Positions 250-39,130 of a stretch of 42,048 nt of DNA are shown here, in pieces. The translations under genes were made by a program, and so were the position numbers. The DNA lies in the NCBI GenBank assembly GCA_023667765.1, contig JAMOZS010000020.1, positions 1 to 42,048 of the forward strand, written 5' to 3'. The DNA comes from Roseburia sp. GTDB taxonomy: Bacteria; Bacillota; Clostridia; Lachnospirales; Lachnospiraceae. The notes beneath the pieces are model-generated. The model had not been told where the DNA came from. It did not search any database and worked only from the letters and a program-made list of their open reading frames with translations. Position 1 is the stretch's first letter, and every line of letters starts with the position of its first letter.

Positions 250-344
250 TTGCGTCGCAAAGCGGCAAATTCCCCTGCAAATCCGTGTACACCGCCAGAG
301 GCTGTAAAGAGTAAAGAAGGGCCGCTTTCATCAGCGTTTCCCTA
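250..344 (-). repeat. TA-bordered palindromic repeat, copy A (right end lost)
   Basis: Read on the minus strand this copy starts with TA then GGGAAACGCTGATGAAAGC and continues through the conserved middle (GGCGGTGTACACGGATTTGC, then GGGGAATTTGCCGC). The right-hand inverted end is missing. The left TA border (343-344) lies inside the TAG stop codon of the CvpA gene (342-344). It matches the full copy at 35588-35713 over roughly its first 80 bp, with a short divergent stretch after the first hairpin. Confidence 0.8.
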
Positions 345-848
345 GAAAGAAATTTGTATAAACGATATTCTTTCACTAAGGGTTTCAATAAAGTGAGCCA
401 GATAATTATGTTCATAAAACCATACTAAAATACGGCTTTCTCTGGTATATTCCATTATCATTTCCCCTATCATCCCCATGTCCATGAGCATCGAAAAAGT
501 ATAAATTGTCCAAAGTATTGAAACAGTTTCCAAAATTCCAACCACAATACCCAGCAACTTATCTAACCAATGTACTACCGGTAGTTTTGTAATGACCTTC
601 GCCGAGAAAAAAAACACACCCAGCAAGTGATGCACAATGCTGATAACAGCCAACAGAAAAAAGGCAATCACAACATTCACCATCTCTCCCTTGGTATAAC
701 TGGTGATACCTGCCGCCAAAAGCGCCACTACCGCAGAAACCACAATCAGTGATACCAGAGAGATAATTTCCCTGACCATTCCCTTTTTATGCCCGTCTAT
801 TATCTTTATGAGCAGAAGTCCCAAAAACAAAATCAATAAAAAGTTCAT
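342..848 (-). CDS. CvpA family membrane protein
   Basis: This 168-residue protein is almost entirely hydrophobic, with about four predicted membrane segments (near residues 2-14, 25-47, 55-78 and 95-122). The order and length fit the CvpA/colicin V production family, integral membrane proteins of 160-200 residues whose molecular role in Firmicutes is not settled. The start is supported by a GGGAGG site seven bases upstream. The gene ends in a TAG that coincides with the TA border of repeat copy A, so its natural 3' end may have been changed by the insertion. It is the last gene of a unit with the DUF5711 and LysM proteins. A perfect 6-bp hairpin (863-878) sits just upstream of its ribosome binding site. 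The family call rests on topology and general resemblance rather than a catalytic motif. Confidence 0.7.
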   Translation of the reverse strand: MNFLLILFLGLLLIKIIDGHKKGMVREIISLVSLIVVSAVVALLAAGITSYTKGEMVNVVIAFFLLAVISIVHHLLGVFFFSAKVITKLPVVHWLDKLLGIVVGILETVSILWTIYTFSMLMDMGMIGEMIMEYTRESRILVWFYEHNYLAHFIETLSERISFIQISF

Positions 849-892
849 TTGTATCCCTCCCCGCCCGTTTGTACGGGCATCCGTTCCATTTC

Positions 893-2092
893 TTATTTTA
901 ATTGTATGGTATCAATGGAATTATCTGTCACCAGCACATACCTGTAGCGGCCGCTGGCTGCCGGAAGCATCAGATTTACCGGCTTGTCAAAATGTCCCTG
1001 ATACTTGCACACGCCGTCCATCGTCATAATCAGGCACTCCGTCTCATTATATATCACAAAATTATCCTGAGTAAAAAAGATATTTCTATAATCTATGTCA
1101 AAATAACAATCTGTCACCGGATTCCCTGTAGTATTATAAACCACCAGCTTGTAATAGGCATCTGCATTATCGGAGGGAAACACTAATCCGATATATTTCT
1201 CATTATAATATACCGCCTGTATCTCCTGCTCCAGAAAACGCAAAGTTTCCAGGTCAGGCTTCTGAGCGCCCTTATATATCATAAACTGGCCGTCTCCTAC
1301 TGCAAAAGCCGTGTCATTATTCATGAAACAAATCTCCGGCACCAGCAAATTCTCATAGGCAAAGGTGCTTACCAGATAATCACTCTGATTGGCGCCCACG
1401 GCTCCAAAATTATAAAAAGCCACATTTGTCTTTAGCGCGCCTGCTTCAATATACAGATAACTGACTGCCAGCAATTCTCCATTGGGAGACAGACTGATTG
1501 CACAGGGATATCCTCCCTCGCTCATATGCGCCTGTCCGTCATAAAGACTTTTACCTGTGGCGCTGTATGTATTAATCCAGGTGATATCGGTGTCCTCCAG
1601 AATCGCAGTAACAGTGCCTGCCGCCGAGACCGTTATGTCCTTAATCGGCAGGTTTGTCGTAATTTCGCCCAACTGCTTCTCGGCGCTTTGCACATAAATA
1701 TTCCGTCCGTTATAATCTCCGATAGCCACCACATCCTGACAGGCAGATAAAAGGATGTCCGAAATCTCGTATGTCTGATTCCATGTCACCGTTCCTTTCA
1801 TATTTGTACAATGCGCGCCATCCTTACTATAAGTCAGGATGGCATTCTGCAGGCGCATATCTACAGCATCGGCCGCCTTCTCCCGACTGACTGTGCCCAC
1901 AATATCATAATCGGTATATAAATGGCGCCTGTATTGCGTCCTGATTAGCAAAAAAAACGCAAAGATAACCGCCGCCACCAGCAGCATTCTGTAAACGGTA
2001 GTCAGCTTATGCCTTCTGATTTTATCTTTATAATTCGTCTGATTACGCTCTCTTTGCTCTTTTTCCTTCAGGTAATTTTTGATTTCAGCCAT
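893..2092 (-). CDS. DUF5711 family membrane-anchored protein
   Basis: The 399-residue protein has a short basic cytoplasmic N-terminus rich in Lys, Arg and Glu (residues 1-33), one membrane segment (about 34-50), then a long extracytoplasmic region of short beta strands and turns typical of a beta-propeller-like fold. The sequence has the look of the Lachnospiraceae DUF5711 family, whose function is unknown. It lies 44 bp upstream of the CvpA gene and follows the LysM gene in the same direction, so the three probably form one envelope-related operon. I see no catalytic motif, and a sensor or scaffold role outside the membrane is only inference. Confidence 0.65.
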   Translation of the reverse strand: MAEIKNYLKEKEQRERNQTNYKDKIRRHKLTTVYRMLLVAAVIFAFFLLIRTQYRRHLYTDYDIVGTVSREKAADAVDMRLQNAILTYSKDGAHCTNMKGTVTWNQTYEISDILLSACQDVVAIGDYNGRNIYVQSAEKQLGEITTNLPIKDITVSAAGTVTAILEDTDITWINTYSATGKSLYDGQAHMSEGGYPCAISLSPNGELLAVSYLYIEAGALKTNVAFYNFGAVGANQSDYLVSTFAYENLLVPEICFMNNDTAFAVGDGQFMIYKGAQKPDLETLRFLEQEIQAVYYNEKYIGLVFPSDNADAYYKLVVYNTTGNPVTDCYFDIDYRNIFFTQDNFVIYNETECLIMTMDGVCKYQGHFDKPVNLMLPAASGRYRYVLVTDNSIDTIQLK

Positions 2093-2153
2093 GTCTATTG
2101 TCCTTAACCAGTCAAAAATTTATCACAAACAAAGTATAACACACTCCCCGTTC

Positions 2154-3481: not shown

Positions 3482-3539
3482 TTTACCGCTTTGCAGCGCA
3501 AATCCGGTGCGGGAAACATTTTTCTCAGCGTTTCCCTTA
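3482..3539 (+). repeat. TA-bordered palindromic repeat, copy F (right half only)
   Basis: This is the right half of the repeat family: CCGCTTTGC, then GCGCAAATCCGGTGCGGGAA and the terminal CAGCGTTTCCC with TA. It matches the end of the full copy at 35588-35713 with a few substitutions. Its terminal TA (3538-3539) is part of the TAA stop codon of the minus-strand mutarotase gene (3537-3539). Confidence 0.75.
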
Positions 3540-5595: not shown

Positions 5596-5598
5596 CTC

Positions 5599-7164
5599 TT
5601 ATTCCTCCTCTTCTTCTATTTCCATATGGATAACCTGTGAAAGGTCCACATAGTTTTCTTCAAATTCACGCTGATTCTCTACCGTCTGAAAGGCCACCTC
5701 TACCTGCTTACCGGCAAAATCCGACAGCAGCCGTTCCAGCTGCTCCTTATTTTCCTCCCGGGTAAAATAATCCGATACCGGGCCGTCCTCAACCACCACC
5801 ATCAGTCGGTTATCTCCGCCCAGACTCAGCTTAACGGTTTTCAAATACATTCTCATGGGGTTCTCGGCATTGCCGATAATCCCCGGCCATTTCGCCACAA
5901 TTTCCCGGATATCCTCAGGAACCGCCTTAGGCAGCTGAGGCTTCGGCCGGGAGGCCGTCTGCGCCAAATCTCCCGGGGAGCGGTCGGATGCGGTCTGCAC
6001 AATGGTCACACCGTTCTCCACTTTCTCCTCCACCTGTCGGATACGGTCTAACACCGCGTCCTGACTGGTCTCCATCTCCGGCTTACACAGCTTTATCAAA
6101 GCAATCTCTATCAGAATACGCTTCTGGGAGGCATATTTTATCTGGCCGGCCAAATCCGAGAAAATACGAATATATCGAACAATCTGGTCCATGGACACCT
6201 GGGCCGCTTCCTCCTTCAGCCTGACCAGATTATCCGAGGACATATCGACCACGTCCTCCAGATTATCCGAAGCCTGCACCAGCAGCAGATTACGCATATA
6301 CCAGGTAAAATCCGCCACGAACTGATGAAGCTCCCGGCCTTGCATTACGATTTCCTCTAACAGCGTAATACAGCCCAGCACATCCCTGGCATGCACATAG
6401 CGCAGCAATTCGCTGAACACCCCTGTATCTACCGCTCCCAGTACGTCCAGCACCTTGTCATAGGTAAGCTCCTTCCCCAGATGAAAGGCGATACACTGGT
6501 CCAGGAGACTTAAGGCATCGCGCATGGAGCCGTCAGCCGTCTTGGCTATATATCGAAGCGCCTTCTCTTCCACCTCTACCTTTTCCGCCTGGGTCAGGGT
6601 TTTCATCCGCTCCGCAATCGTGTCAATGGAAATACGTTTGAAATCATATCTCTGACACCGGGACAATATGGTGATGGGCAGCTTATGCACCTCCGTAGTC
6701 GCCAATATAAAGATTACATAGGAAGGCGGCTCCTCCAATGTTTTAAGCAATGCATTGAAGGCGCCTATGGAAAGCATATGTACCTCGTCAATAATATAAA
6801 CCTTATATTTACCCTCCGCCGGCGAATAGGACACCTCGTCAACAATTTCCCGGATATTGTCCACGCCATTGTTGGAGGCGGCGTCTATCTCTATGACATT
6901 CATGCTGGCGCCGGCGGCAATCGCCTTACAAATGCGGCACTCCCCACAGGGGCCGTCCTCTGTGGGGTGCTCGCAATTCACTGTCTTTGCAAAAATTTTC
7001 GCTACGGATGTTTTACCGGTTCCTCTGGTTCCGGTAAAGAGATACGCATGCCCGATTCTGTTTGCCTTCAACTGATTGCGAAGCGTGGTTACAATATGCT
7101 CCTGTCCCTTCACCTCCGCAAAAGTATCCGGACGAAATTTTCGGTATAGCGCTGTATACGACAT
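5599..7164 (-). CDS. dnaX: DNA polymerase III subunit gamma/tau
   Basis: This is the clamp-loader ATPase of the replicative polymerase. The 521-residue protein shows a Walker A motif GTRGTGKT (45-52), a four-Cys zinc module (Cys64, Cys73, Cys76, Cys79), a Walker B region IIDEVHML (about 124-131) and a sensor SRC motif (ILSRCQRYDF). The C-terminal third is variable, as usual, and ends in a run of Glu. The start is preceded by GGAGGTTCTTT. The gene follows pfkA by 15 bp. I see no convincing slippery site for programmed frameshifting. Confidence 0.97.
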   Translation of the reverse strand: MSYTALYRKFRPDTFAEVKGQEHIVTTLRNQLKANRIGHAYLFTGTRGTGKTSVAKIFAKTVNCEHPTEDGPCGECRICKAIAAGASMNVIEIDAASNNGVDNIREIVDEVSYSPAEGKYKVYIIDEVHMLSIGAFNALLKTLEEPPSYVIFILATTEVHKLPITILSRCQRYDFKRISIDTIAERMKTLTQAEKVEVEEKALRYIAKTADGSMRDALSLLDQCIAFHLGKELTYDKVLDVLGAVDTGVFSELLRYVHARDVLGCITLLEEIVMQGRELHQFVADFTWYMRNLLLVQASDNLEDVVDMSSDNLVRLKEEAAQVSMDQIVRYIRIFSDLAGQIKYASQKRILIEIALIKLCKPEMETSQDAVLDRIRQVEEKVENGVTIVQTASDRSPGDLAQTASRPKPQLPKAVPEDIREIVAKWPGIIGNAENPMRMYLKTVKLSLGGDNRLMVVVEDGPVSDYFTREENKEQLERLLSDFAGKQVEVAFQTVENQREFEENYVDLSQVIHMEIEEEEE

Positions 7165-8416: not shown

Positions 8417-8505
8417 GGAGATGTACCCAAGTGGCTGAAGGGTTCGGATTCGAAATCCGATAGGTCGGCTTTGCCGGCGCCGGGGTTCAAATCCCCGCAT
8501 CTCCG
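8417..8505 (+). tRNA. tRNA-Ser (anticodon CGA)
   Basis: The acceptor arms GGAGATG (8417-8423) and CATCTCC (8498-8504) pair fully, followed by discriminator G. The anticodon stem TCGGA/TCCGA closes a seven-base loop with CGA at 8451-8453, which reads the serine codon UCG. A long variable arm (TCGGC...GCCGG region) marks it as a class II serine tRNA, and the T arm is GGGGTTCAAATCCCC. The 3' CCA is not encoded (CCGTTA follows). Confidence 0.97.
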
Positions 8506-12365: not shown

Positions 12366-12411
12366 GGAAGCACTGATGAAATCAGCTCTTCCTTAGAGCC
12401 TCTGGCGGTGT
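12363..12411 (+). repeat. TA-bordered palindromic repeat, copy D (left half)
   Basis: TA (12363-12364) is followed by AGGAAGCACTGATGAAATCA and the closing GCTCTTCCT with TA (12394-12395), making a 33-bp hairpin. The conserved GAGCCTCTGGCGGTGTAC then follows before the sequence diverges. The copy fills the whole gap between two convergent genes: its left TA is in the TAA stop of the dehydrogenase, and its other end touches the TAG stop of the MATE gene (12413-12415). Confidence 0.8.
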
Positions 12412-12412
12412 A

Positions 12413-14553: not shown

Positions 14554-14652
14554 GCATAACCTCATTCCTGAGATGCTCTTTGCGCATCCTGCCATGTTTG
14601 TGACCGCTCCATTTTTAAGAACTATCACAAATCATAGCATACTCTTTCAAAA

Positions 14653-14685
14653 TAGGGAAGCCCTGATTGAATCAGCGTTTCCTTA
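14653..14685. repeat. TA-bordered palindromic repeat, copy E (solo hairpin)
   Basis: A 33-bp near-perfect palindrome with TA at both ends: GGGAAGCCCTGATT and AATCAGCGTTTCC are its arms. The adjacent minus-strand SDR gene reads into it; its last codons Leu-Arg-Lys-Arg and the TGA stop (14672-14674) are encoded by the repeat. Confidence 0.75.
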
Positions 14686-28061: not shown

Positions 28062-28113
28062 AATTGACCCACCCTTCCACACCATATCAGAGCATTTCAT
28101 TTCTTCCTTGTAT

Positions 28114-29568
28114 TTATTCAGCGGGAGGGGGTGTCGTCAGAATAGCAATTACATTCTTCACATGGTCGATACTATTGGTTCCAATAGCCGCCATAATCTC
28201 CTCATAGGCTGTCGGATCCTCCGTGAAGGTACCTACCACGGCACTTCTGGGAGACATCTTATAACTGCTGCTGTTAATCTGTTCTCTGCTGACCTCCGCG
28301 CCGTCCTCCGTTACAATCTTCCAGAGCCTTGCCTTATAACCGATATGGGCTCCGGATGTGGAAATATAGCCAACCGGCTGCCCCGCATCAGGATAAATAA
28401 TATCCGTCTCAGGACGATTTACCTCCAGCACCTCGCTCTCGTAACGCACCTGATGCCCTGCGCTTCTGGTTTCACATCCATAGATTGTAAAGGTAATTTT
28501 CTTCTTTTCCGTATATCCCTCGATATAGACAGGATAATCCGTATTATTTACAAATTTGAAATCCTTGCCGGAGCTTTCTGCGATAGCCGCATCAGCCGAA
28601 GGATCCACATAAGTCACAATCATGGAATGATTATGCCGCTCCGTTACCTCCAGCTCCGACAATAATACTGCATTATAAAGCGTTGTGGATACCTGACAGA
28701 TGCCGCCTCCCAGACTGTCCACCACCTTGCCGTTTACATAAGAGCCCGCCATATAATATCCGTTCTGTTGCGTAAAGGGAGAAACCGTCTCATAGGTAGA
28801 GAATTCATCCCCGGGATATAACATTACCCCGTCAATCAAATGACAGCCATTCTCCACATTGGCGCTTCGGGAGGCGCCCGAGGTGGAATAGGAGGTGGTA
28901 AAGCTGCCTAATACATCCTTCACTCTGGAAAGCGACTGGGCGTCCCCTCTGGGCTCGCTCACCGCAACCTGCAGGGCAATTCTGGCCGGCTGATAGTCCC
29001 ACTCCTCCACCAGATAATTATATACCAAATCAATGGAGGTTTCCACATCCAGCTGATAACCGGTCTGTCCCTCAATCACGGTAAAGCTGTCCTCCTCCCG
29101 TTTCAGCCTGGCGTCTATAGCCGGCTGGTCGAAGGGAGCGCATTGCTCCAGCAACACCTGATTAATGGAATGTACGTCAAAGGAAAGTCTGACCTCATAT
29201 ACCTGATTCTCATGCTCCAAGTCCTTTAATATCTTATAACGCTCCAGCACATTCCCCTTCGTTCCCAGCTGCAGCGCCTCATCCACTATCTGTTCATTGG
29301 CCCAGGAAAGCCCAAGCTCCCCTGCCGTGACAGTCACCTCTTTATCTCCTGCCGCAAGCAGCGTAAGCTCCACGGGCTTTAGCTGCTCCACATAAGCCGC
29401 CACAGCCGCCATAGCTTCCTTTCTTGTCATGCCTGACAGCTCCACCGTATCCGCATACACACCGGTATGTATCGTCTGTTCCGTCTCCGCCTGCACCCGC
29501 ATGCCTCCCAAAAAGAGACAAACCATCAGTGCAGAAATAAAACCCGCATTTCTTATCCGCTTCTTCAT
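28114..29568 (-). CDS. VanW family protein with peptidoglycan-binding-like domain
   Basis: A 484-residue exported protein with a signal peptide (1-27, cut near RVQA/ET). Residues about 35-215 form a YoaR/PG-binding-4-like region, and 232-350 contain the VanW domain (NVENGCHLIDGVMLYPGDEF, SLGGGICQVSTTLYNAVLL, ERHNHSMIVTYV). The conserved Cys in GGGICQVS and His in ERHNHS are present. VanW is named from vancomycin-resistance clusters; these chromosomal homologues probably act in the cell envelope but no enzyme activity is established. The start has GGAGGCTGAGA. It lies 52 bp upstream of the PurM-like gene. Confidence 0.92.
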   Translation of the reverse strand: MKKRIRNAGFISALMVCLFLGGMRVQAETEQTIHTGVYADTVELSGMTRKEAMAAVAAYVEQLKPVELTLLAAGDKEVTVTAGELGLSWANEQIVDEALQLGTKGNVLERYKILKDLEHENQVYEVRLSFDVHSINQVLLEQCAPFDQPAIDARLKREEDSFTVIEGQTGYQLDVETSIDLVYNYLVEEWDYQPARIALQVAVSEPRGDAQSLSRVKDVLGSFTTSYSTSGASRSANVENGCHLIDGVMLYPGDEFSTYETVSPFTQQNGYYMAGSYVNGKVVDSLGGGICQVSTTLYNAVLLSELEVTERHNHSMIVTYVDPSADAAIAESSGKDFKFVNNTDYPVYIEGYTEKKKITFTIYGCETRSAGHQVRYESEVLEVNRPETDIIYPDAGQPVGYISTSGAHIGYKARLWKIVTEDGAEVSREQINSSSYKMSPRSAVVGTFTEDPTAYEEIMAAIGTNSIDHVKNVIAILTTPPPAE

Positions 29569-29639
29569 TCTCAGCCTCCATACTACGACTGTTTCTCAGG
29601 GACAGCCGAACGCTCAAGTTTTTAAAAGGTTTCATTGAA

Positions 29640-29747
29640 TCAACTCAGGAAATATGCTAAAGTAGGAAGTACCATAGCGATTACCAAAAACAAAATAATG
29701 ATAGCAGATATTCGTTTCTTTGTCTTTTTGCTATTCATATGGAACAT
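29640..29747 (-). CDS. Small single-pass membrane protein (35 residues)
   Basis: The frame runs ATG (29745-29747) to TGA (29640-29642). It encodes a short basic start (KKTKKR) and one hydrophobic helix (about 14-33), ending AYFLS. An AGGAG site lies six bases before the first ATG, while the second in-frame ATG three codons later has no good spacing. The architecture resembles Prli42-type stress-associated mini-proteins of Firmicutes, but that is similarity of layout only. It is divergent from the plus-strand gene at 29823, and the two may share a control region (29748-29822). Confidence 0.6.
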   Translation of the reverse strand: MFHMNSKKTKKRISAIIILFLVIAMVLPTLAYFLS

Positions 29748-29822
29748 ATTGTACTCCTGTCCGCCCTTCGTGTAAAGGTACTGATACACCGGGGCAATTC
29801 ATTTTCTGAAAGGATATTATAT

Positions 29823-30431
29823 ATGAAATTTTACATTTTGGCAAGCTTATTCCTGTTCGGGATGGTAATATTCCGGGCCATAAGAAAAGGAGACAGAAAA
29901 CAGAAAGCTCTGGAGGACGCCTTCTGGGCCCGTGAAGCCGCTGCCAACTCCGTGCGCCGAAAGCCTATAGACGACCTGCCCTATATCTATATTCCCCTGG
30001 AGCTGCTGCCTGTGGAAGCGCTCCCCGACAACCCGGAAGTCGCCGACTGTGTCCGACTGATACGACAGCTCTCCGAAAAGCGTATTCTGAATCTCACAGG
30101 CTATACCAATACGGATTTGAAGCTGGAATACGGTACGGCCAACATAACGGCGCTCTCCGAATATGACCAAAACTATACGCTTCTGGCCCGTACCCTGCAA
30201 AAATGGGCCGAAGAACTGCTGAAATACGGCTGCACGGAGGAAGCCCGTACGGTTATGGAATTTGCCGTCAGTACCTCCACCGACGTCAGCAATACCTATT
30301 ACCGGCTGGCCGAGTACTGGAACGCCAGAAACGATACCTGCCAAATCCAAAAGCTGATAGAGGCCGCTCAAGGTCTGCGTTCCTCCAACAGGGACATTAT
30401 CGTCCGTACTTTGCAAGAAACTTATCTGTAA
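29823..30431 (+). CDS. Membrane-anchored protein of unknown function
   Basis: A 202-residue protein with one N-terminal membrane segment (about 2-17) followed by a basic stretch and a soluble cytoplasmic domain. The region from about 90 to 200 looks all-helical with TPR-like spacing (LARTLQKWAEELLKYGCTEEARTVMEFAV, then NTYYRLAEYWNARNDTCQIQKLIEAAQ). I do not recognise a named family. AAAGGA stands eight bases before the ATG; an upstream ATG would overlap the divergent small gene. Its last 35 bp overlap, tail to tail, the exonuclease gene on the other strand. Confidence 0.7.
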   Translation: MKFYILASLFLFGMVIFRAIRKGDRKQKALEDAFWAREAAANSVRRKPIDDLPYIYIPLELLPVEALPDNPEVADCVRLIRQLSEKRILNLTGYTNTDLKLEYGTANITALSEYDQNYTLLARTLQKWAEELLKYGCTEEARTVMEFAVSTSTDVSNTYYRLAEYWNARNDTCQIQKLIEAAQGLRSSNRDIIVRTLQETYL

Positions 30432-31098
30432 GGCGACTGGCCTCACTTCTGGTAAGACCCTCTATCTCTATGTCCGGCTCTATTTTATGCAGAGAAAACA
30501 AGCGATATAACCGCTCCCTCTGAGCTTTTGTGGCAGGCGTATCCCTCTTTGCCTGAAAATGCAGCGCCCGAGGCATGAAGAGCGGCTCCTCCTCCCTGTA
30601 AAACTCCCGAAGAAGCCTCTGATACAGAAGGCTGGTGGCCCTGGCGTCCTCCAAAGCTCTGTGGGCATGATGAGGAATCCCGTAATAGCCGCAGAGACTG
30701 TCCAGGTTCCTGTGTTCCAGCTGCGCCAGATACTTCCGGGCAAGCTTCAGGGTATCAATGGCCTCCTTCTCAAAAGTCATTCTTTGGTTCACGGCCGCCT
30801 TTTTCAAAAAAGAATAATCGAAAAGAACGCTGTGCCCTAACAGGGGATAGTCCTCCAGGAAAGCAAACAGTCCGGGCAAAAGCTCCTCTATTCCGGGAGC
30901 CTGTGTCAAATCCTGATTCTGTATTCCCGTGAGCCCCGTAATATGCGGTTCCAGCCTCCTCCCGGGATTCACAAAGCACGAAAAGCTCCCCGCCTCTATT
31001 CCGTCCACCACCTTTAAAGCGCCTATCTCAATGATTTTATCCTGCTTGGGATTCAGTCCCGTGGTCTCTAAATCAATACTCACATATGATTTTATCAT
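30397..31098 (-). CDS. DnaQ-type 3'-5' exonuclease
   Basis: A 233-residue DEDDh exonuclease. The catalytic acids are Asp9 and Glu11 (SIDLETTG), Asp94 (GHSVLFDYSFLKKA), and His146 with Asp151 (HRALEDARAT). This is the proofreading-like domain found in DNA polymerase III epsilon and PolC. Beyond the domain there is a 55-residue C-terminal extension (PATKAQRERLYRLF, then IEIEGLTRSEASRLTDKFLAKYG) likely to form helices and bind DNA or a partner. The start overlaps the end of the radical SAM gene by 26 bp and has no independent ribosome binding site, so it depends on coupling. Confidence 0.9.
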   Translation of the reverse strand: MIKSYVSIDLETTGLNPKQDKIIEIGALKVVDGIEAGSFSCFVNPGRRLEPHITGLTGIQNQDLTQAPGIEELLPGLFAFLEDYPLLGHSVLFDYSFLKKAAVNQRMTFEKEAIDTLKLARKYLAQLEHRNLDSLCGYYGIPHHAHRALEDARATSLLYQRLLREFYREEEPLFMPRALHFQAKRDTPATKAQRERLYRLFSLHKIEPDIEIEGLTRSEASRLTDKFLAKYGR

Positions 31099-32857
31099 TT
31101 CCTATTATCAATCCTTTCGCTTCACAGGTCAGCGGATTCCGTTTTTCGTAGTCAAACAGCACATAGCCGCCCACAAGCTCCTTTGCCGGTTCCCCCCGCA
31201 GCTGTAATAATTTTTCCCCGTCCCACACCGGATATGCAAAATGCTCCATATGGGTCATTTTACTCAGCTGCTTCCCGTCGTAGGCTCTATACTCCGGCAG
31301 ATATCTTCTGCTCCTTGCTTCCTCTCTGTAAAAGCTTCGGATAAATTCTCTTTCCCGGCGGCCGGGCTGTACGGCAAAATCCGGCCGGCTCTTTAGATTC
31401 TCCCGCAAATACATATCATAAGTCAGAAGCTCCCGATACAGCGCCTCGTGGGAGCCGTCATAACGGCAGGCAAAGGCCAGCATCACCTGATAGCGATAGC
31501 TGCGGGCGGGGCTGTTGATAAAATAACCCTCCTCCTCGTAAAAATCCGCCAGCGCCTCATATAAGGCAAAGGGCCCTTCAAAGGCTTTTTCCAGGAAAAG
31601 CAGCGTAGACCGGAACTGATTGCTGTTGTAATACAGCTCCAGCACCTCCTCTATGCGCTTTAGACGCAATACCTCCCCGAAGCTCAGCCACTTATTGCAT
31701 AACAGCTCATAGGGAGGATTGTCCAAATATCGAATACCATACTGCACCGTTTTTTCTTCCATGGGAGAGCCTTTCAGCACCTTCAGAAAGCCCAGCTGCA
31801 GCTGCTGGGGCCTCATGGCATAAACCCGGTCGAAGGATTGCCGGAAGCTCTCGTAATCCTCATAGGGAAGTCCCGCAATCAAATCCAGATGCTGGTGAAT
31901 GTTTTTGCCCCGGCTGACAGCTGCTACAATCCGTTCCAGCTTCTCTACATCCATCCTTCGCTCTATCGCCTCTATCGTTTGGGAATTGGTGGACTGCACT
32001 CCGATTTCCAGCTGTACCTGACCGGGCCTGAGCTGATTCAACAGAGCTATCTCATCCTCCCTCAAAATATCCGCCGAAATCTCAAAGTGAAAGTTTGTGA
32101 CGCCATTGTCATGTTCTTTTATATACTCCCATATAGCCATGGCATGGGTGTGGTCGCAGTTAAAGGTGCGGTCCACAAACTTAACCTGCTTCACCCGATG
32201 CTCCAGAAAGAACTGCAGCTCCTTTTTGACAACCTCCCTATCCCGAAAACGCAGTTTTTTCTCAATAGACGACAGACAATAGCTGCAATGATAGGGACAG
32301 CCCCGGCTGGTCTCATAATAGATAATCCGGTTCTCGAAGGGCAGTAAGTCCGTATACAAAAAGGGCAATTCGTTCATATCTATGGGCTCACGGCAGGGAG
32401 TAACTCCCTCCGGCAGACACAGTCCGGCAATCTCCTCCAGCTGCCTGTCCCCGTACACATAATAGGACATAAGCTCCTTAAAAGTGGCCTCCCCCTCTCC
32501 CAGCATAATTCCTCTCACCTGAGGAAACTCCCGCAACAGTGCGTCCCCGTGAAAGCTTACTTCCGGGCCTCCCAGCCATATCCGGGTTTCCGGCAGCACC
32601 TTCGGCAGCTCCCGCAGCAGACGCCGTATCATATCCCAGTTCCAGATATAACAGGAAAAGCCGATAACATCCGGCTTTCTTTTGTAAATATCCGAGAGAA
32701 TGTCCTGCATTCTGTTATTGATTGTGTACTCCGCCAAAGATATATAAGGCCTGAAAGCCTCCCCGGCATAAGCGCGCAGGCTGTATATGGCCGGGTTGGA
32801 ATGTATGTATTTCGCATTAACTGCGACCAGTAGAAATGTGCCGAATGTTCTGTCCAT
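31073..32857 (-). CDS. B12-binding radical SAM protein, DUF4080 type
   Basis: A 594-residue protein. The N-terminal part (about 10-140) is a B12-binding-like Rossmann domain (VNAKYIHSNPAIYSLRAY, KPDVIGFSCYIWNW, IWLGGPEVSF, GEGEATF). The radical SAM domain has Cys187, Cys191 and Cys194 (SRGCPYHCSYC), and the C-terminal 200 residues match DUF4080 in character, with many Tyr and Arg. Members are presumed methylthiotransferase- or anaerobic methyl-transfer-like enzymes, but no substrate is known. The ATG at 32855-32857 has AGAGGG upstream; a longer frame exists but enters repeat copy C. The 3' end overlaps the exonuclease gene. Confidence 0.88.
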   Translation of the reverse strand: MDRTFGTFLLVAVNAKYIHSNPAIYSLRAYAGEAFRPYISLAEYTINNRMQDILSDIYKRKPDVIGFSCYIWNWDMIRRLLRELPKVLPETRIWLGGPEVSFHGDALLREFPQVRGIMLGEGEATFKELMSYYVYGDRQLEEIAGLCLPEGVTPCREPIDMNELPFLYTDLLPFENRIIYYETSRGCPYHCSYCLSSIEKKLRFRDREVVKKELQFFLEHRVKQVKFVDRTFNCDHTHAMAIWEYIKEHDNGVTNFHFEISADILREDEIALLNQLRPGQVQLEIGVQSTNSQTIEAIERRMDVEKLERIVAAVSRGKNIHQHLDLIAGLPYEDYESFRQSFDRVYAMRPQQLQLGFLKVLKGSPMEEKTVQYGIRYLDNPPYELLCNKWLSFGEVLRLKRIEEVLELYYNSNQFRSTLLFLEKAFEGPFALYEALADFYEEEGYFINSPARSYRYQVMLAFACRYDGSHEALYRELLTYDMYLRENLKSRPDFAVQPGRREREFIRSFYREEARSRRYLPEYRAYDGKQLSKMTHMEHFAYPVWDGEKLLQLRGEPAKELVGGYVLFDYEKRNPLTCEAKGLIIGNDKIICEY

Positions 32858-32869
32858 AAGAAATCCCTC

Positions 32870-32955
32870 TACGCTGATGAAAGCGGTTCCCCTGCAAATC
32901 CCCATACCTCCGCCAAAGGCTCTACGGAAGGGCCAATGGAATCAGCGCTTCCGTA
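32870..32955 (-). repeat. TA-bordered palindromic repeat, copy C (internally deleted)
   Basis: Read on minus it begins TACGGAAGCGCTGATT, continues through GAGCCTTTGGCGG and GGGATTTGCAGGGGAA, then skips the central GCCGC/GCGGC stem before CGCTTTCATCAGCG. The length is about 86 bp instead of 126. The left end is inside the 3' end of the CapA gene, whose last codons and TGA (32942-32944) it supplies. The right end is 13 bp before the radical SAM start. Confidence 0.8.
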
Positions 32956-34180
32956 AGAAACCCTCTGCGTCAACCTCCACATTAAAATCCTTCCCCAGCT
33001 CATTCAGCCGGCTGATAATGCGGGCCGCCTCCTCTCCCTGAGCCGGAGTGGGCTTATAATCATTGCGCTCCTTCAGGGAGCTCACAAAACAGGGAATGAC
33101 CCTCGCCGAAGCCTCCTGCTGCTTTTCTCCCTCCCGAAAGGTAAAGGTCTGTTGAAAAATCATCGTATCCTTATCGGAAGGGTTGCGGTTGGCGCCAAAG
33201 CAGAAATTGCCCAGACTGTATAAAATATACTTTCCCTGATATTCCTCTATCCCCTGGAGCACATGAGGATGATGGCCGATGACCAGGTCCGCTCCCCAGT
33301 CAATACATTTCTGACCCAGCGTGCGCTGGTAATCCTCAGGATAGTACTCCCTTTCGACGCCCCAGTGGCAACAGGCAAGTATCAAGTCAGCGCCTTCCTC
33401 CCTGAGCCCTGCGATGCCCTTCTCCAGGAAATTTTCCACATAGACCCCCTGGGAGCTCTCATTGACGGACACAATGCCAATACGAATATCCTTTACCTCA
33501 AACATGCCCACATTGCCGTCATACGCATAGACAATCCCCGCCTCCTGCAGGGCCGCCACCGTGTCCGCCGTACCTGCTTCACCGTAATCCAGACGGTGAT
33601 TGTTTCCCATACTCACGGCCTCCACGCTCCCTGACGTCAAAATGCCCGTATATGCCGGGTCTCCCTTAATATTATAGGTTCTGCCCGCATTTATCTCCTC
33701 GGACAGGGTCAGCACTCCCTCCAGATTCACAATCGTCAAATCATCCTGAGAGAAAATTTCAGATACATTTTCCAGGAAATAGCCGTCATCTTGCTGCTGT
33801 TCATAGGTCTGGCAAAAAGACCAGGCATAATCCTGCTCCAGATAATTACCCAGACTGCAGTCTCCCGCCGCCGATATGGTAATCGTCACCGTATCTGACT
33901 GCTCCTCCGACTGTTCCTCCGGCTGCGCCGGAGCCTCCACCCCGAAGTCACCGCCCGTTTCCGAAGCTTTCTCCCCCACCGGCTCCTCTGGCGATTCTTT
34001 CTGCGTCCCGGCCTCCTCCCTATCTTCCTGAGGGTAAAGCTCCTCCGGCTGCGCCAGAACCGGCAGCACCGTCTCCAGCGCCTTATCATCACCGCAGCCC
34101 GTAAGCAGGCTCACGCATATCAGTCCTCCCAGATACGCATATGCCCTCCTCCGCAGACGTCCTGCTTTATTTCTTGCCAT
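32942..34180 (-). CDS. CapA family lipoprotein (poly-gamma-glutamate synthesis type)
   Basis: A 412-residue lipoprotein. The signal ends in the lipobox LTGC with Cys29, followed by an acidic linker (about 35-110) and a CapA metallophosphatase-like domain: SAAGDCSLG, NLEGVLT, MGNNHRLDYG, CHWGVE, GHHPHVLQG and YSLGNFCFG are all metal-site blocks. CapA proteins take part in poly-gamma-glutamate or capsule formation; no capBC genes are present, so a general envelope role is likelier. Start at 34180 has AGGA eight bases upstream and overlaps the LCP gene by 14 bp. The final Leu-Arg-Lys-Arg and stop come from repeat copy C. Confidence 0.88.
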   Translation of the reverse strand: MARNKAGRLRRRAYAYLGGLICVSLLTGCGDDKALETVLPVLAQPEELYPQEDREEAGTQKESPEEPVGEKASETGGDFGVEAPAQPEEQSEEQSDTVTITISAAGDCSLGNYLEQDYAWSFCQTYEQQQDDGYFLENVSEIFSQDDLTIVNLEGVLTLSEEINAGRTYNIKGDPAYTGILTSGSVEAVSMGNNHRLDYGEAGTADTVAALQEAGIVYAYDGNVGMFEVKDIRIGIVSVNESSQGVYVENFLEKGIAGLREEGADLILACCHWGVEREYYPEDYQRTLGQKCIDWGADLVIGHHPHVLQGIEEYQGKYILYSLGNFCFGANRNPSDKDTMIFQQTFTFREGEKQQEASARVIPCFVSSLKERNDYKPTPAQGEEAARIISRLNELGKDFNVEVDAEGFLRKR

Positions 34181-35414
34181 ACACATTTTCCTGCAAATAT
34201 TGCTTGTTCGTCTCAAAATCCACCTCCAGCACCGCCATGCCCCGAATCGTGGCGTCTCTGTAACTTCCTGCAATGGGAATGCTATTCTGCTCCATGTCAT
34301 AGGCAAGAAGCTTGGAAAGCTCCAGACACAGCCTGAAGCACTCATTCTTTGTCAGATTGGTGGTCAAATTAGGCAGAATGCCATCCATCAGCTGCTTCGG
34401 ATGGGTAACGACCGCCTTCGGAAGCTTTGCCATAACTGCGCCAAGCACCTTCCGCTGTCTCTCTGTCCGTCCGAAATCCGTGCCCAGATAACGATTCCGG
34501 GAATAGGCCAACGCCTGAGGCCCGTTTAAATGCACCAGGCCGCTCACACTGGTATCCATATTATCTGTACCCTGAGGACGGTCTGTCAGCATATTATACT
34601 CTACCAGATAACCGTTTACATACTCGATTTCCTCACTGGTCAGCTCCAGCTCCACACCGTCCACAGCGTCCACCAGATTCGCGAACGCCTCAAAATTCAC
34701 CAAAACATAGCGATTGACGGTAATGTCAAAATTCTGCTCAATCGTCTCCATCAAAAGCTCTGCGCCCCCAAAGGAATACGCCGCATTCAGACGATTCCCG
34801 TCATGACCCGGAATATCCACATACATATCCCTGAGCAAGGAAGTCATATAAATCTTTTGGGACTTGCTGCTGATAGTCAGAAGAATCATCGCATCCGAAC
34901 GCCCGTCCGCACTGTTATCCCGGGAATCATTTCCGATAAGCAGCACATTGATAGCGCCATCCTCTTTTAAGGGCGCATCCGTCAGACTCTCAATCTCCAC
35001 ATAATTCAACTTTTTATAAGTCTGCCCCACCAGATAATACAGCCCTCCGCCCAGAAGCAGAAGCAATAGCAGGAGAATCAGCAGAAATTTCTTAAAACCG
35101 GATTTCTTCTTTCTTTTCTTTTTATGCTGTTTCTGCTGATTCTCGTATCCTTTATACTGTTTTTCGTGTCCTTTATGGTGGTTTTCATTCTTTTGATACT
35201 GATTTTCGTACCCTTTATACTGTTTTTCATTCCTTTTATATTGATTTTCATTCTTCTGACGCCTGTCCCCAGGCTGTGTTCCTTTATTGCGACGGTTATC
35301 CGGACGGCTATCGGTACGCTTTCCCCCGCCGTCCTGACGCCGCTTATGACTGGGGACCTTATCCCAGTCCTCCTCGTAATCCTCATCCATATTGAACAAT
35401 TGTAATTTTCCCAA
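34167..35414 (-). CDS. LytR-CpsA-Psr (LCP) family glycopolymer transferase
   Basis: A 415-residue membrane protein. The cytoplasmic N-terminus is very basic and contains six heptad repeats (residues 54-95, consensus xxExQYK). One membrane helix (about 108-128) follows, and the LCP catalytic domain (about 145-350) has the LLIGNDSRD, SDAMILLTI, SLLRDMYVDIPG and RLNAAYSFGG blocks. LCP enzymes attach teichoic acid or capsule polymers to peptidoglycan from lipid carriers. The likely start is TTG (35412-35414) with AAGGA seven bases upstream. The ATG eight codons later lacks a site. A strong promoter at 35474-35502 drives it and the overlapping CapA gene. Confidence 0.9.
   Translation of the reverse strand: MGKLQLFNMDEDYEEDWDKVPSHKRRQDGGGKRTDSRPDNRRNKGTQPGDRRQKNENQYKRNEKQYKGYENQYQKNENHHKGHEKQYKGYENQQKQHKKKRKKKSGFKKFLLILLLLLLLLGGGLYYLVGQTYKKLNYVEIESLTDAPLKEDGAINVLLIGNDSRDNSADGRSDAMILLTISSKSQKIYMTSLLRDMYVDIPGHDGNRLNAAYSFGGAELLMETIEQNFDITVNRYVLVNFEAFANLVDAVDGVELELTSEEIEYVNGYLVEYNMLTDRPQGTDNMDTSVSGLVHLNGPQALAYSRNRYLGTDFGRTERQRKVLGAVMAKLPKAVVTHPKQLMDGILPNLTTNLTKNECFRLCLELSKLLAYDMEQNSIPIAGSYRDATIRGMAVLEVDFETNKQYLQENVYGKK
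35130..35255 (-). repeat. Six in-frame 21-bp tandem repeats in the LCP gene
   Basis: The 126-bp array codes for six heptads (KNENQYK, RNEKQYK, GYENQYQ, KNENHHK, GHEKQYK, GYENQQK). The DNA units have diverged but keep the frame, so the array is under protein-level constraint and prone to length change. Confidence 0.8.
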
Positions 35415-35473
35415 ACTGACTGTCCTTGCCTTTCTGTGTCAGCCATCTGCGGCTTCCCTTCTGTTATCGGCTC

Positions 35474-35502
35474 ATTTTATGCTATTTTTTACCGCCTGTC
35501 AA
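35474..35502 (-). promoter_or_regulatory. Promoter of the LCP-CapA operon
   Basis: On minus, a consensus TTGACA (35497-35502), a 17-bp spacer and TAAAAT (35474-35479), 59 bp before the TTG start of the LCP gene. Confidence 0.75.
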
Positions 35503-35587
35503 GCCGCCTGGCTCCTCCCATCAGCCAGGAAGCTCTTTTCGGATAAGTACCGTATACGGAACTGTCATAAAACTGCGCACAGCTTCC

Positions 35588-35713
35588 TAAGGAAGAACTG
35601 ATGAAAGCAGCTTTTCCTTTGAGCCTTCGGCGGATGCACACGGATTTGCAGGGGAATTTGCCGCTTTGCGGCGCAAATCCGGTGCGGGAAACGCTTTCAT
35701 CAGCGTTTCCCTA
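35588..35713 (+). mobile_element. Full-length TA-bordered palindromic element (MITE-like), copy B
   Basis: This 126-bp unit is the most complete copy of the family. It starts TA-AGGAAGAACTGATGAAAGC and ends GCTTTCATCAGCGTTTCCC-TA, giving inverted ends of about 19 bp. Three hairpins can form: the left end, a central GCCGCTTTGCGGC within GGATTTGC...GCGCAAATCC, and a perfect right-end stem GGGAAACGCT/AGCGTTTCCC. TA at both borders is the target duplication expected for Tc1/mariner or IS630-type transposition. It encodes no protein. It lies between the LCP promoter and the Rpn nuclease gene. Confidence 0.8.
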
Positions 35714-35730
35714 CATTTTGTGTTTTTATA

Positions 35731-35772
35731 GAAAAAGGAGCTGTGCGCTAAATCATTCGTGCAACAGCCCCC
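35731..35772 (-). terminator. Terminator after the Rpn nuclease gene
   Basis: On the minus strand GGGGCTGTTGC pairs imperfectly with GCGCACAGCTCC across a 10-base loop, followed by TTTTTC. It lies 48 bp after the nuclease stop. Confidence 0.55.
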
Positions 35773-35819
35773 AAGTATTTTTTGCTTACAGTCGTCAAAT
35801 AGCCATACACGCATTACCG

Positions 35820-36737
35820 TTATGAATGCGATGGCTGAACCGTTACTGCGAATCTATCGTAATATTCTTCGGCCTGTTCCCTGTCCAAACCAAACCGGCT
35901 GATTAATTTTCCGACAATGACCTCTTCTGTCTTACCCTCCTCTGCATTATCCAAGATAAATACCCTTATTCCTTCTTCTCTTCCTTCTTTTATTCCCTCT
36001 TCTCTTCCTTCCTCTCTTGCATCAACTCTGTCCAGATTCCACTTCATAAATTCCCTCCTCCATTCCTCATGTCTTCTGGCCGCTTCCACCGCTCTGTCCA
36101 GTTCCTCCGTATATTTGTCCCGGGGTATCTTCGTCTCAAAATATTTTAACAGGTTCCCCAGCTCCGGACTGATATCCTCCCATTTACCCTTGGTGTTCAG
36201 GAAGATTTTCTCCGTCCCGTCCGCCAGCCGGATGGACGGGTCCTCCCGGCAAAGGTTCTCAAAATGGTAGATATGTCTTCCTGCTCCGAAAAGGTCAAAA
36301 GTACAGATAAAGATAACATAGCTCTTTTTCAGGCTCCGGTACTCCGCCCCTTTTTCCAGCAGACTGATATCTATTACTGACTGATAATAGCGACTCCGGC
36401 CGGGAAGGCAGGGTTTTCTTGACGCCTGCATCTCCACGCAATATACAGTATTTCTGTCGTCCTCCAGATAGATATCCAGACGAATCCCCTTCGCCTCGTA
36501 ATCCGGATGCATGGTGTTCTGTTCGTCTGCAAACTCTATCTCCCGGATTTTCACGCCCAGAATAATCTCCAGCAGTTTTCTGCATCTCTCCGGCTCCTGC
36601 ATCACCTTCCCGAACATAAAATCATCCGTTATCGTCAATTCCTCGTACGCTTTTGTCCCTTTTACCTTTTTTGTCCTTTTTACCTCTTCTGCCTTTTGTT
36701 GCGCTTGCACACTTTGTACCTTTTTTTCTTTTTCCAT
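35820..36737 (-). CDS. Rpn-family PD-(D/E)XK nuclease (recombination-promoting nuclease)
   Basis: A 305-residue protein of the PD-(D/E)XK transposase-like family (PDDEXK_2). Residues 34-46 (LTITDDFMFGKVM) are the family opening; the active-site residues are Asp88 (RLDIYLED) and Glu102-x-Gln104 (CVEMQ). The C-terminal part is charged and carries repeats of EEGREEGIKEGREEG. E. coli RpnA relatives cut DNA and promote recA-independent recombination, and many copies spread between strains. The ATG at 36735-36737 has a GGAGG six bases upstream. It is a solitary gene with its own terminator, likely a mobile or selfish passenger. Confidence 0.87.
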   Translation of the reverse strand: MEKEKKVQSVQAQQKAEEVKRTKKVKGTKAYEELTITDDFMFGKVMQEPERCRKLLEIILGVKIREIEFADEQNTMHPDYEAKGIRLDIYLEDDRNTVYCVEMQASRKPCLPGRSRYYQSVIDISLLEKGAEYRSLKKSYVIFICTFDLFGAGRHIYHFENLCREDPSIRLADGTEKIFLNTKGKWEDISPELGNLLKYFETKIPRDKYTEELDRAVEAARRHEEWRREFMKWNLDRVDAREEGREEGIKEGREEGIRVFILDNAEEGKTEEVIVGKLISRFGLDREQAEEYYDRFAVTVQPSHS

Positions 36738-37152
36738 AGGCGTCCTCCTTTTGTACAGCGGCAGGAGAAACCTCTTCCAACAGGACAGCAGCCTGTCCAT
36801 GGAACAACCTGTCCATGGAACATCCGTCCGGGGTCTCCTGCTTTTAGTTTACGAGTTACATCCGCAGGAGCGCCTTTTCTTTCAGAAAACTCCTGCTTAT
36901 GAATGGGATATAAAAGCATGAATTTTCTAAAAGAGTTCTGTTTTGAACAAGCAGAAAAATAGACAAGATACAGAAAAATATGCTTTGTGACTATATTATC
37001 ATCAGAAAGCATATTTTTCAACTGTTTTTTATATCTTTATTGTTTTTTATTACTTTATTTTATTACTTCTTCACCTTTTCCACTGGGCGTAAAGTACTAC
37101 GGTTTTTCCGTTCTTATTGGTAAGGTTCTTTACCGCTTCCGTCCTTCCTGGT
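36738..37152. other. 415-bp gap upstream of the Rpn nuclease
   Basis: The gap holds two exact-core 16-bp tandem repeats, CCTGTCCATGGAACA (36792-36806 and 36808-36822). It also holds one GCAGGAG (36864-36870) that can pair with either of two CTCCTGC copies (36835-36841 or 36890-36896), and the AI-2E transporter terminator (36973-37018). From 37020 to 37080 it is strongly AT-rich. I see no convincing small gene and no clear -35/-10 pair. Confidence 0.5.
36973..37018 (-). terminator. Terminator after the AI-2E family transporter gene
   Basis: AAAAATATGCTTT (36974-36986) and AAAGCATATTTTT (37006-37018) form a stem with a loop of about 20 bases; both sides carry A/T runs, so it can act in both directions. 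It lies 135 bp past the transporter stop on minus. Confidence 0.65.
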
Positions 37153-38217
37153 TCACTCCCTTGTATACTGTCCCTGCCTGCGCAGGATGCTCTGATAGGT
37201 CTGATAAATGATGATAAACCCTAAGGGCCCTTTAATAATACCGCTGATGCCGAATAGGCCCAGGCCCGCATATACGGATACCAGCACCGCAATAGGCGGC
37301 ACGCCGATACGCCTGCCAATCAGCTTAGGCTCCAGACATTCCCGCAAAAACACACAGAGCAGATACAGGCCAAGACACAGCAGGGCTCTGCCCGGATGAC
37401 TGCCGAACAGCTGCGTCACCCCTAAGGGCAGCAGAACAATACCCGTACCTATAAAGGGCAGCGCATCCAGCACACCGGCCAACACTCCCCAGAGCACTCC
37501 ATGACGCACACCCCCAAGGCCAAGGGTAATGGAACAAAGAAGCGCAATCACAGACATGATAATTCCCTGCGCCTTCACATAAGTAGCAATATATCGGATA
37601 ATCCCACAAATGACCTCCAGAAACAGATGACATTCCTCCCTATCCAGCATGCGGTTCATAATTTCGTCGTAATCCTTCGCCAGAAGAACCGCCGCTATGA
37701 CAAATGTTACCAGAAAACCTCCCAGAGACGCCATCAACTTTACATATTGCCAGGATTGAGACAACACCCCCGGCACTGTTTGATTCTGCAGATAATCAAT
37801 GCCGCCCTGCAGACTGTGAAGTATGGTATTTTCCAGGTAAATGCTGTCTATTCCGATGGTATTTCCCAGCCACTGACAAATACTTCCCACAAAGCCGGAC
37901 AGCTCTATCTCCAGTTTCTCCAACTCCCCTGCCCATTGGGGAAGACTTCCCACTATCCAGGATAACAAAACCCATACCAGCACTAATAAGAGCAGCCCTG
38001 CCGCCAGCAGAAGAACCACGGCGCCCACTTGTCTATGGATATGAAGTTTATCCTGTATTTTCTTTAGGAGCGGGCCAAATATGGTCACAAACAGCATGGC
38101 AATCAATACCGGAGACAAAAGCGGAGACAGATATCTTAAGAAAAAATATACTGCCCCTGTCAAAAGGAGCAGTATCGCCAATTTACTTTTTCTTATTTCT
38201 TCCCATATTCTTTCCAT
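37153..38217 (-). CDS. AI-2E family membrane protein
   Basis: A 354-residue protein with seven to eight membrane segments. The opening pair of helices, the FVTIFGPLLKKIQDKL segment, and the C-terminal LGGVRHGVLWGVLAGVLDALPFIGTGIVLLP plus SVYAGLGLFGISGIIKGPLGFI blocks are diagnostic of the AI-2E/UPF0118 family. In spore formers the related YtvI has a sporulation role; other members export autoinducer-2 or act as Na+/H+ exchangers. Which applies here cannot be told. The start has GGGGGAAACGGT before ATG. Confidence 0.9.
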   Translation of the reverse strand: MERIWEEIRKSKLAILLLLTGAVYFFLRYLSPLLSPVLIAMLFVTIFGPLLKKIQDKLHIHRQVGAVVLLLAAGLLLLVLVWVLLSWIVGSLPQWAGELEKLEIELSGFVGSICQWLGNTIGIDSIYLENTILHSLQGGIDYLQNQTVPGVLSQSWQYVKLMASLGGFLVTFVIAAVLLAKDYDEIMNRMLDREECHLFLEVICGIIRYIATYVKAQGIIMSVIALLCSITLGLGGVRHGVLWGVLAGVLDALPFIGTGIVLLPLGVTQLFGSHPGRALLCLGLYLLCVFLRECLEPKLIGRRIGVPPIAVLVSVYAGLGLFGISGIIKGPLGFIIIYQTYQSILRRQGQYTRE

Positions 38218-38281
38218 ACCGTTTCCCCCGCTGCATACCGCTTACGAAATTCCTGTTATTGATAAGATTAGTATGGATTTT

Positions 38282-39034
38282 TTATCTGACTGCTATACCT
38301 GCAAAAGCCTCATTGCCAGGCTCCGTTTCAAAATGCATTTCCCTCCCGTCAGCCGGATGCCTCAAAATTAACTGATATGCACATAGAGCGACATATTTGA
38401 TTCCCCTGTTGCGCCCAAAAGCAATAGAAGCCTCTGTTCCGTATTTTACATCTCCCAGCAGAGGCATACCTGCATGCGCCATCTGCGCTCTGATTTGATG
38501 AAAGCGGCCGGTTTCAATTTCGACGTCCAAAAGGCTGGTTCCCTCCGGCCGTTCCGAAACAGCCGGAAAATACTGCAGCAAGCGGTATCTCAGCCTTGCG
38601 GGCTTAGCCTCAGGATACAGGCTCTGCTGCCCTGTGACGATTCTTGCTCTGTTTTCCTTATCCTTATACAGATAATCCACAAGCTCTCCTTCCCCCAAGG
38701 GCGGTTTCCCCCAAACCATGGCATAATAACGCTTATGAAGCCCGCCTTCCTGCAGCTGTTTCGACAGAGCTGAAGTCGACTTTTTATTTTTTGCAAAAAC
38801 CAGCAGCCCCTCTACAGGCTGATCCAGACGATGCACGACTCCCAAATACGGCTGTGGATATCCGTTCTCAGGCTGAGAGTCCTTCGCAGACTGTAAGCCG
38901 CCCTCCCTCCTCAGATAATTCTTAAGCTCGCTTACCACATCCGACTGACCTACTGCGCCTGTCTGGGTGGCAAGACCCGCCGGCTTATGTATCACCAGCA
39001 GTTCTTTATCCTCATAAAGAATTTTCGTTCTCAT
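38282..39034 (-). CDS. RluA family pseudouridine synthase
   Basis: A 250-residue enzyme converting specific uridines in rRNA or tRNA to pseudouridine. The catalytic Asp is Asp71 in VVHRLDQPVEGLLVFAK, and ETGRFHQIRAQMAH and PLLGDVKYG are the remaining family motifs. No S4 domain precedes the core, so it is a short RluA/RluC-like member. The target base is unknown. GAGGA lies eight bases before ATG. It follows the RsmF-type gene by 83 bp, a common pairing of RNA-modifying genes. Confidence 0.93.
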   Translation of the reverse strand: MRTKILYEDKELLVIHKPAGLATQTGAVGQSDVVSELKNYLRREGGLQSAKDSQPENGYPQPYLGVVHRLDQPVEGLLVFAKNKKSTSALSKQLQEGGLHKRYYAMVWGKPPLGEGELVDYLYKDKENRARIVTGQQSLYPEAKPARLRYRLLQYFPAVSERPEGTSLLDVEIETGRFHQIRAQMAHAGMPLLGDVKYGTEASIAFGRNRGIKYVALCAYQLILRHPADGREMHFETEPGNEAFAGIAVR

Positions 39035-39098
39035 GGTTAAGTCCTCACCCTCCTGTCCCTTGCTCGTATTATATAACAGCGTTTACAGACTCTCTTTC

Positions 39099-39130
39099 TA
39101 AAGAAGCGCCGATGAAATCAGCCCTTCCTA
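39099..39130. repeat. TA-bordered palindromic repeat, copy G (solo left-end hairpin)
   Basis: A 32-bp hairpin with TA at both ends: AAGAAGCGCCGAT and ATCAGCCCTTCCT are the arms. The following AGCCCTTTGG keeps some likeness to the next part of the element. The minus-strand RsmF-type gene runs into it and ends there (TGA at 39118-39120), with Leu-Arg-Lys-Gly encoded by the repeat. Confidence 0.7.

Follow-up and report, generated by a model that had tools for sequence, protein, structure and literature searches.

In Coxiella burnetii, all functional annotated genes affected by the miniature inverted-repeat transposable elements (MITEs) QMITE1 and QMITE2 carry the insertion at their 3′ end (PMC5896051), and repetitive extragenic palindromes (REPs) of the GTAG type lie near the 3′ ends of open reading frames (ORFs), to which their termini often provide TAG stop codons (PMC3733652). 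The insertion sequence (IS) IS5 of Escherichia coli is 1195 bp long, has 16-bp repeats, and is reported to duplicate 4 bp of target reading C(A/T)A(G/A), for instance CTAA (PMC11677980). Here we describe a dispersed palindromic element found in a 42,048-nucleotide stretch of Roseburia sp. DNA (assembly GCA_023667765.1, contig JAMOZS010000020.1), called the window below, which is the entire contig (C14) of a 2.79-Mb, 101-contig, 94%-complete genome. A preliminary description of the window had proposed a TA-bordered transposon relic that ends genes and may have been adopted as a gene-end module. We conclude, with a probability of about 0.88, that the element is a MITE family mobilized in trans by an IS5-family DDE transposase, piling up at gene 3′ ends through its target and through tolerance of insertions there. 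The idea of a transposon relic holds in the form of a non-autonomous element, and the analysis defines a MITE family across many Lachnospiraceae and names its likely transposase.

The full element is about 126 bp long, is non-coding, and consists of two outer hairpins, left and right, separated by a central stem-loop that itself contains a GC-rich hairpin. The outer arm of the left hairpin is one terminal repeat and the right hairpin terminates in the other, giving inverted ends that begin GGAARCGCTGAT. When the whole 2.79-Mb genome was searched with the end motif TARGGAARCGCTGATNNAA, 284 matches (143 + 141) were obtained at up to 3 mismatches against 18 (10 + 8) for the reversed control, and 194 (100 + 94) against 0 at up to 2 mismatches. 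The element exceeds chance occurrence and is present in about a hundred or more copies in its own genome. A census of 41 stretches picked around known hits, which cover 807,960 of the 2,788,298 bases and include the window, counted 102 elements. Of these, 6 were full length, 32 were anchored at the left and 13 at the right, 8 were internal pieces, and 43 were short or end-only. Solos of 31 to 33 bp consist of two terminal repeats that abut each other. The left hairpin and the right end have a short direct repeat, ATCAGC, in common, and deletion between its copies could yield such solos. A side reading is that solos may move by themselves as 27-bp units; bearing on this, flanks and half types are mixed among the solos of this genome.

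An exact 23-base core pattern was found at 73 loci in 39 assemblies (counted by accession prefix), mostly of Lachnospiraceae. Twenty-five of the assemblies are named Lachnospiraceae bacterium, five bear the names Lachnotalea, Roseburia (2), Blautia, or Hominisplanchenecus, and the rest carry less exact names, one of them Muribaculum. Lachnospiraceae bacterium COE1 and Hominisplanchenecus murintestinalis are among the carriers. Locus L074, from an uncultured Lachnospiraceae metagenome-assembled genome, is identical over 248 flank bases to locus L031 of genome G001, which suggests that the named loci include the window's genus as well. The family is old or spreading between species. The scan demanded an exact match to the core and right end, and the copies aligned from it are thus ascertained for that part. 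Our alignment, A1, holds 40 near-full-length copies, 35 from relatives and 5 from the window's own genome. Its source was 46 near-full copies, 42 of them with coordinates (all but L138, L116, L133, and L077), of which 35 were used. Excluded were four MITE variants whose core carries an extra hairpin (AAGCCTCTTTCAGAGGCTT; L104:1450-1598, L083:3371-3515, L079:3533-3676, and L076:2830-2975), L086 and L098 with odd cores, and L144, which repeats the L132 site. There is overlap between the 40 A1 rows and the two-ended named loci used below to replicate the flank and stop results.

The TA at the borders forms the two central bases of a duplicated 4-bp target, CTAA/TTAG. Identical 4-mers stand on both sides of 22 of the 40 full-length MITEs, one pair being ATAG/ATAG and one TTAG/TTAG; permutation gave a mean of 15.7 (p = 0.002). 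Of 24 two-ended elements sampled from the window's own genome, 18 match at three or all four flank positions, 7 of them exactly, in a table in which some end assignments are a few bases off (e.g., L052 5989); in the named loci the corresponding figures are 32 of 41 and 21. Joined flanks (69 queries) were also searched against all sequence collected at that stage. Besides self matches, overlapping loci, and reverse-strand L132/L144 matches, this search gave one clear empty site: the filled site L074 and the empty stretch L128 share 56 of 66 bases, and what sets them apart is the element and one CTAA. The stretch that hosts the MITE in L074 (about 6367-6555) and is empty in L128 (about 1687-1752) itself has inverted ends (GTGTAAAGATTTTCTAAG .. 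AGAAAATCTAAGTTACAC) and is perhaps another dispersed repeat. Genome G044, which belongs to the same genus, has contigs that end within an IS, and the 11 IS ends examined (of 16 motif matches) are all preceded by CTAA (6) or TTAG (5). End A follows 4 TTAG and 2 CTAA, and end B follows 1 TTAG and 4 CTAA; since each end occurs with both, the 4-mer belongs to the target.

The preliminary description had read the borders as a TA duplication and had suggested an IS630/Tc1-like partner. An IS630/Tc1-type MITE would agree with the central TA in most borders and with several own-genome solos (window 14652-14686, L063 601-632, and L070 12000-12038) for which one flank is CTAA and the other CTAT (on the opposite strand, ATAG), an inexact 4-bp match of the kind that a shorter duplication would give. 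It is largely refuted by the 4-bp concordance, by an IS flanked by CTAA/TTAG in both orientations, and by an IS5-family transposase between the same ends (see below), and we consider it very improbable. The duplication reaches 4 bp in the G044 IS flanks and the L074/L128 pair as well as in the concordance of 4-mers. Of the earlier expectation for relatives, an empty site turned up once, in a genome other than the window's own; a TA duplication as such was not found.

A complete IS of 1,223 bp lies in genome G149 (L173 1262-2484), with GGAAACGCTGATTAA at both ends and TTAG on both sides. It encodes a 330-amino-acid transposase that matches the IS5-family model NF033581 with 286 bits (cut-off, 140), and PF01609 and PF05598 above their cut-offs. 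IS5 ends start with GG. The 15-bp ends are common to this IS and the MITE, whose right end matches the L173 IS over all 16 bases in both L002 and L004 and at 15 of 16 in the window copy. In G087, an ORF beginning MKQQTFSDIEYSNRRKKTK follows end A of the G044 IS, and the first 18 residues of this ORF are those of the G149 transposase. Among 138 genomes of the genus, matches to the transposase at E ≤ 1e-20 were found in five: G149 (100% identity), G001 (two pieces, 89 and 94%), G106 (79%, first third), and G024 and G016 (62 to 64%, broken). G001 also carries an internally deleted IS copy with both ends. At least 20 end matches occur in seven of the 138 genomes (the window's own genome G000, G149, G001, G124, G089, G148, and G016), three of which are among the five with transposase matches; the family is patchy.

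The same data bear on a different origin, namely, REP-like palindromes spread by a RAYT/Y1 transposase. Short extragenic hairpins, a gene-3′ bias, and a mixture of solos and paired hairpins do resemble REP organization, and GTAG REPs too give TAG stops (PMC3733652). Such an origin is made most unlikely by the duplicated targets and by the existence of a DDE IS that has these terminal repeats. The GTAG/CGTC tag of REPs was not seen in the MITE consensus, and no search aimed at a Y1 (RAYT) transposase was made.

We favor mobilization by an IS5-type enzyme, for which the observed basis comprises the shared ends, the 4-bp duplication, the transposase family, the 3′-end bias, and the stops in target sites. 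The transposase would recognize the terminal repeats of about 15 bp (GGAARCGCTGATTAA), insert at CTAA/TTAG, and duplicate 4 bp, and the MITE would be moved in trans by it. An insertion in the last codons of a gene would usually be ended by stops in the element ends, leaving short tails such as LRKR*, and insertions elsewhere in genes would be purged by selection, such that surviving copies accumulate at gene 3′ ends. Short deletions afterwards may have produced the truncated and solo copies.

Several observations weigh against this proposal. The IS and the MITE match over the terminal 15 to 17 bp or so only and their cores are unrelated, which rules out a MITE core derived from the IS interior. 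The window's own genome, 94% complete, gave no match to the transposase, nor did four other genomes with at least 20 end matches. The draft assembly may have lost the transposase, and relics can outlive their IS, so that a transposase in the same genome is no strict requirement; G044 and G087 provide context here, with IS ends present and the IS body missing. Two of the 24 two-ended own-genome elements carry fully inverted rather than direct flanks, and the empty site is a single case in another genome at 85% identity. Finally, the left target copy of the full-length elements is CTAA in 27 of 40, the palindromic TTAA in 6, TTAG in 1, and ATAG in 1. This orientation preference on an asymmetric target is unexplained by the plain model, whereas the G044 IS uses both orientations.

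The bias to gene ends was measured on genes called with a custom codon log-odds finder rather than a standard tool. No called gene start is overlapped by any of the 102 own-genome elements as delimited, and 3 of them are intragenic. Of the 79 copies in tandem or convergent spacers, 43 cover a stop codon or come within 10 bp of one. A tandem-distance test gave medians of 14 versus 93 bp, with a p value that is too small because gene ends within elements count as negative distances and the null lacks coding sites. At 20 of 114 intact ends the target 4-mer contains the stop of the incoming gene, and 8 more end the gene inside the element. The former proportion (17.5%) compares with 56 of 996 (5.6%) free non-coding CTAA/TTAG strand-sites (odds ratio, 3.6; p = 2.8e-5). 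The excess was replicated in the 73 named loci (528,682 bases, 88 elements), at 10 of 116 versus 23 of 697 (odds ratio, 2.8; p = 0.018), which bears out the enrichment at stop codons predicted earlier. Since the target holds TAA or TAG, an insertion on a gene's own stop keeps the stop, in line with the earlier idea that such insertions would be harmless.

Sites close to gene ends form a stricter comparison. Against CTAA/TTAG sites 4 to 60 nucleotides (nt) downstream of a stop the excess persists (20:15 versus 56:108, p = 0.013), but against sites 4 to 30 nt downstream it is not significant (20:9 versus 56:52; odds ratio, 2.1; p = 0.14). The stop excess is mostly a 3′-end effect combined with the presence of TAA/TAG in CTAA/TTAG; there may also be a smaller preference for the stops themselves. 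A target that contains stop codons offers a simple quantitative reason for small transposons gathering at gene ends.

An alternative raised in the preliminary description is that the element has been adopted as a gene-end module, in which case copies at stops would be retained for hairpins that terminate transcripts or shield mRNA 3′ ends, a role proposed for REPs. The 43 of 79 spacer copies at stops and the 4-to-60-nt comparison favor this idea, as do the fold and its covariation. The full window copy folds strongly (z of −4.9 and −6.8 on the two strands). Across the 40 copies of A1, 95.9% of pairs are kept, 12 of 40 pairs are changed on both sides, and 76 cells covary, against 30.6 when shuffled and at most 13 when slid. 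On the other side, the stop excess fades against sites 4 to 30 nt downstream, and T-tracts beside the ends are not enriched (T-rich flanks at 14 of 114 versus 75 of 939, p = 0.15). The latter result led us to reject the suggestion that the strong hairpins are general intrinsic transcription terminators. A terminator scan of window positions 28000-42048 gave 21 terminator-like structures versus 13.9 expected, among them the right hairpin at 35686 and part of the 39099 copy. Core orientation is unbiased (21 same, 18 opposite), on which ground an orientation-specific RNA function was also rejected; as an argument against the module this is a weak point, as a hairpin may work both ways. Action of the hairpins in either orientation, with a role in mRNA 3′-end protection, is possible.

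The covariation itself extends into the target duplication. In A1 (columns 1-4 and 32-36), the first base of the left target copy varies with the inner arm of the left hairpin (C:T is 24:4 with inner G and 5:6 with inner A, p = 0.017), a modest effect among related rows in a test picked after viewing the alignment. The right target copy does not track the inner arm (21:7 and 8:2, p = 1.0). Since the target base has no history in common with the element, the tracking points to arm-to-arm correction and suggests templated correction between hairpin arms. Base-pair-guided target choice, in which TTAG of the inner arm would pair with CTAA, was discarded: the left but not the right target is tracked, which correction after insertion fits better. 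Covariation by itself is no proof of selection on the fold, and arm-to-arm correction may explain part of it. A hairpin arm that tracks the target duplication cautions against taking covariation in palindromic mobile DNA for evidence of RNA function. The element's adoption as a gene-end module appears unlikely to us. We are equally doubtful of its bolder form, in which selection keeps the three-hairpin fold across Lachnospiraceae and an IS5 MITE became a reusable, mobile gene-end part of 3′ untranslated regions. If that were true, the element would land on stops harmlessly, add a stop and a basic C-terminal tail, and stabilize or end transcripts in either orientation.

Within the window, the eight copies sit at the coordinates first claimed for them, and all seven associated stop codons were confirmed by ORFs and gene calls, with Pfam for the proteins. 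Of the eight, only the copy at 35588-35713 is full length; the others are fragments, an internally deleted copy, solos, or a short copy. This full-length MITE, delimited at 35587-35714 on the plus strand, has the left hairpin, central stem-loop, and right hairpin between CTAA and CTAC flanks. A left-anchored truncated copy on the minus strand (250-345) has its target CTAG at 342-345, which includes the TAG (344-342) of a CvpA-like (Colicin_V) gene, and the border of a right-anchored plus-strand fragment (3482-3539, profile 70-125) carries the TAA (3539-3537) of an aldose epimerase gene. The CTAA target of a left-anchored plus-strand fragment (12362-12413, profile 1-52) carries the TAA (12363-12365) of a 2-hydroxyacid dehydrogenase gene; its truncated far end adjoins the TAG (12415-12413) of a MatE gene.

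The three remaining copies that end genes supply the stop from within. A solo palindrome of two abutting ends (14652-14686), flanked by ATAG and TTAG, gives LRKR and the TGA at 14674-14672 to a gene of NAD-epimerase/short-chain dehydrogenase/reductase (SDR) type. An internally deleted minus-strand copy (32870-32956), in which part of the core and the tip of the right end are gone as read by eye, gives LRKR and the TGA at 32944-32942 from its left end to a PGA_cap (CapA) gene. Another solo palindrome (39098-39131) gives the last residues, with the tail LRKG, and the TGA at 39120-39118 to an RsmF gene. Two of the eight copies end no gene, namely, the full-length one and a short palindromic copy at 20695-20726 (end motif, 20696-20714).

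The frame CTA-AGG-AAG-CGC-TGA encodes LRKR*, with variants LRKG*, LKGNAD*, and longer ones, so the LRKR* and LRKG* tails are read from element sequence, as the first reading of the window had it. The claim that two of three frames stop at once is largely correct: at the left end 110 of 120 entries into the 40 full-length copies stop within 12 codons, but at the right end only 78 of 120 do, and from there the third frame runs for a median of 37 codons. Tails were compared with 13 of the relatives found for each of two proteins. The PUA domain of RsmF is intact to residue 480 of 481, and its relatives have KGLR near the end in 13 of 13 and KGLRK in 9 of 13, one of them ending KGLRKG* like the window protein. 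Nothing was thus lost from RsmF. The SDR-type protein has LRKR where its 13 relatives show variable tails of few residues. Seven other proteins end in the element. In two of them, DNA ligase and QueH, the last domain is intact to within about 10 residues of the end, and the domains found in the other five say little about the C terminus. Genes thus seem to tolerate insertions at their extreme 3′ end.

The window has two further repeats: 21-bp tandem units at 35119-35244, within a minus-strand ORF (35078-35446), and a 269-bp direct repeat, 92% identical, at 41154-41422 and 41780-42048, which extends to the right end of the contig. No RNA family described in Rfam matches the element, the sole match in the window at gathering score being a tRNA (8417-8505).

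A full-text literature search for three end sequences returned no paper, and no paper title on such an element appeared in the literature listings searched by title only; ISfinder and most subscription literature, which lay outside this search, may describe the family. The IS5 family (E. coli IS5; NCBIfam NF033581, transpos_IS5_4) resembles the present system in its DDE transposase family, an IS of about 1.2 kb, and a 4-bp duplication of CTAA type; the MITE differs in being gene-less and in having a core not derived from the G149 IS. Like QMITEs (PMC5896051), it overlaps functional annotated genes at their 3′ ends and alters C termini, but QMITEs have other sequences, lengths of 300 to 400 and 150 to 190 bp, direct repeats of variable sequence, and other bacterial hosts. 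With GTAG REPs (PMC3733652), it shares palindromic structure, high copy number, a position adjoining ORF 3′ ends, and TAG-giving termini. Unlike them, the Lachnospiraceae MITE duplicates its target, has ends in common with a DDE IS, and lacks a GTAG tag in its consensus. The gene-3′-end bias itself is already described for QMITE and REP elements: the family appears to be new, and its kind is known.

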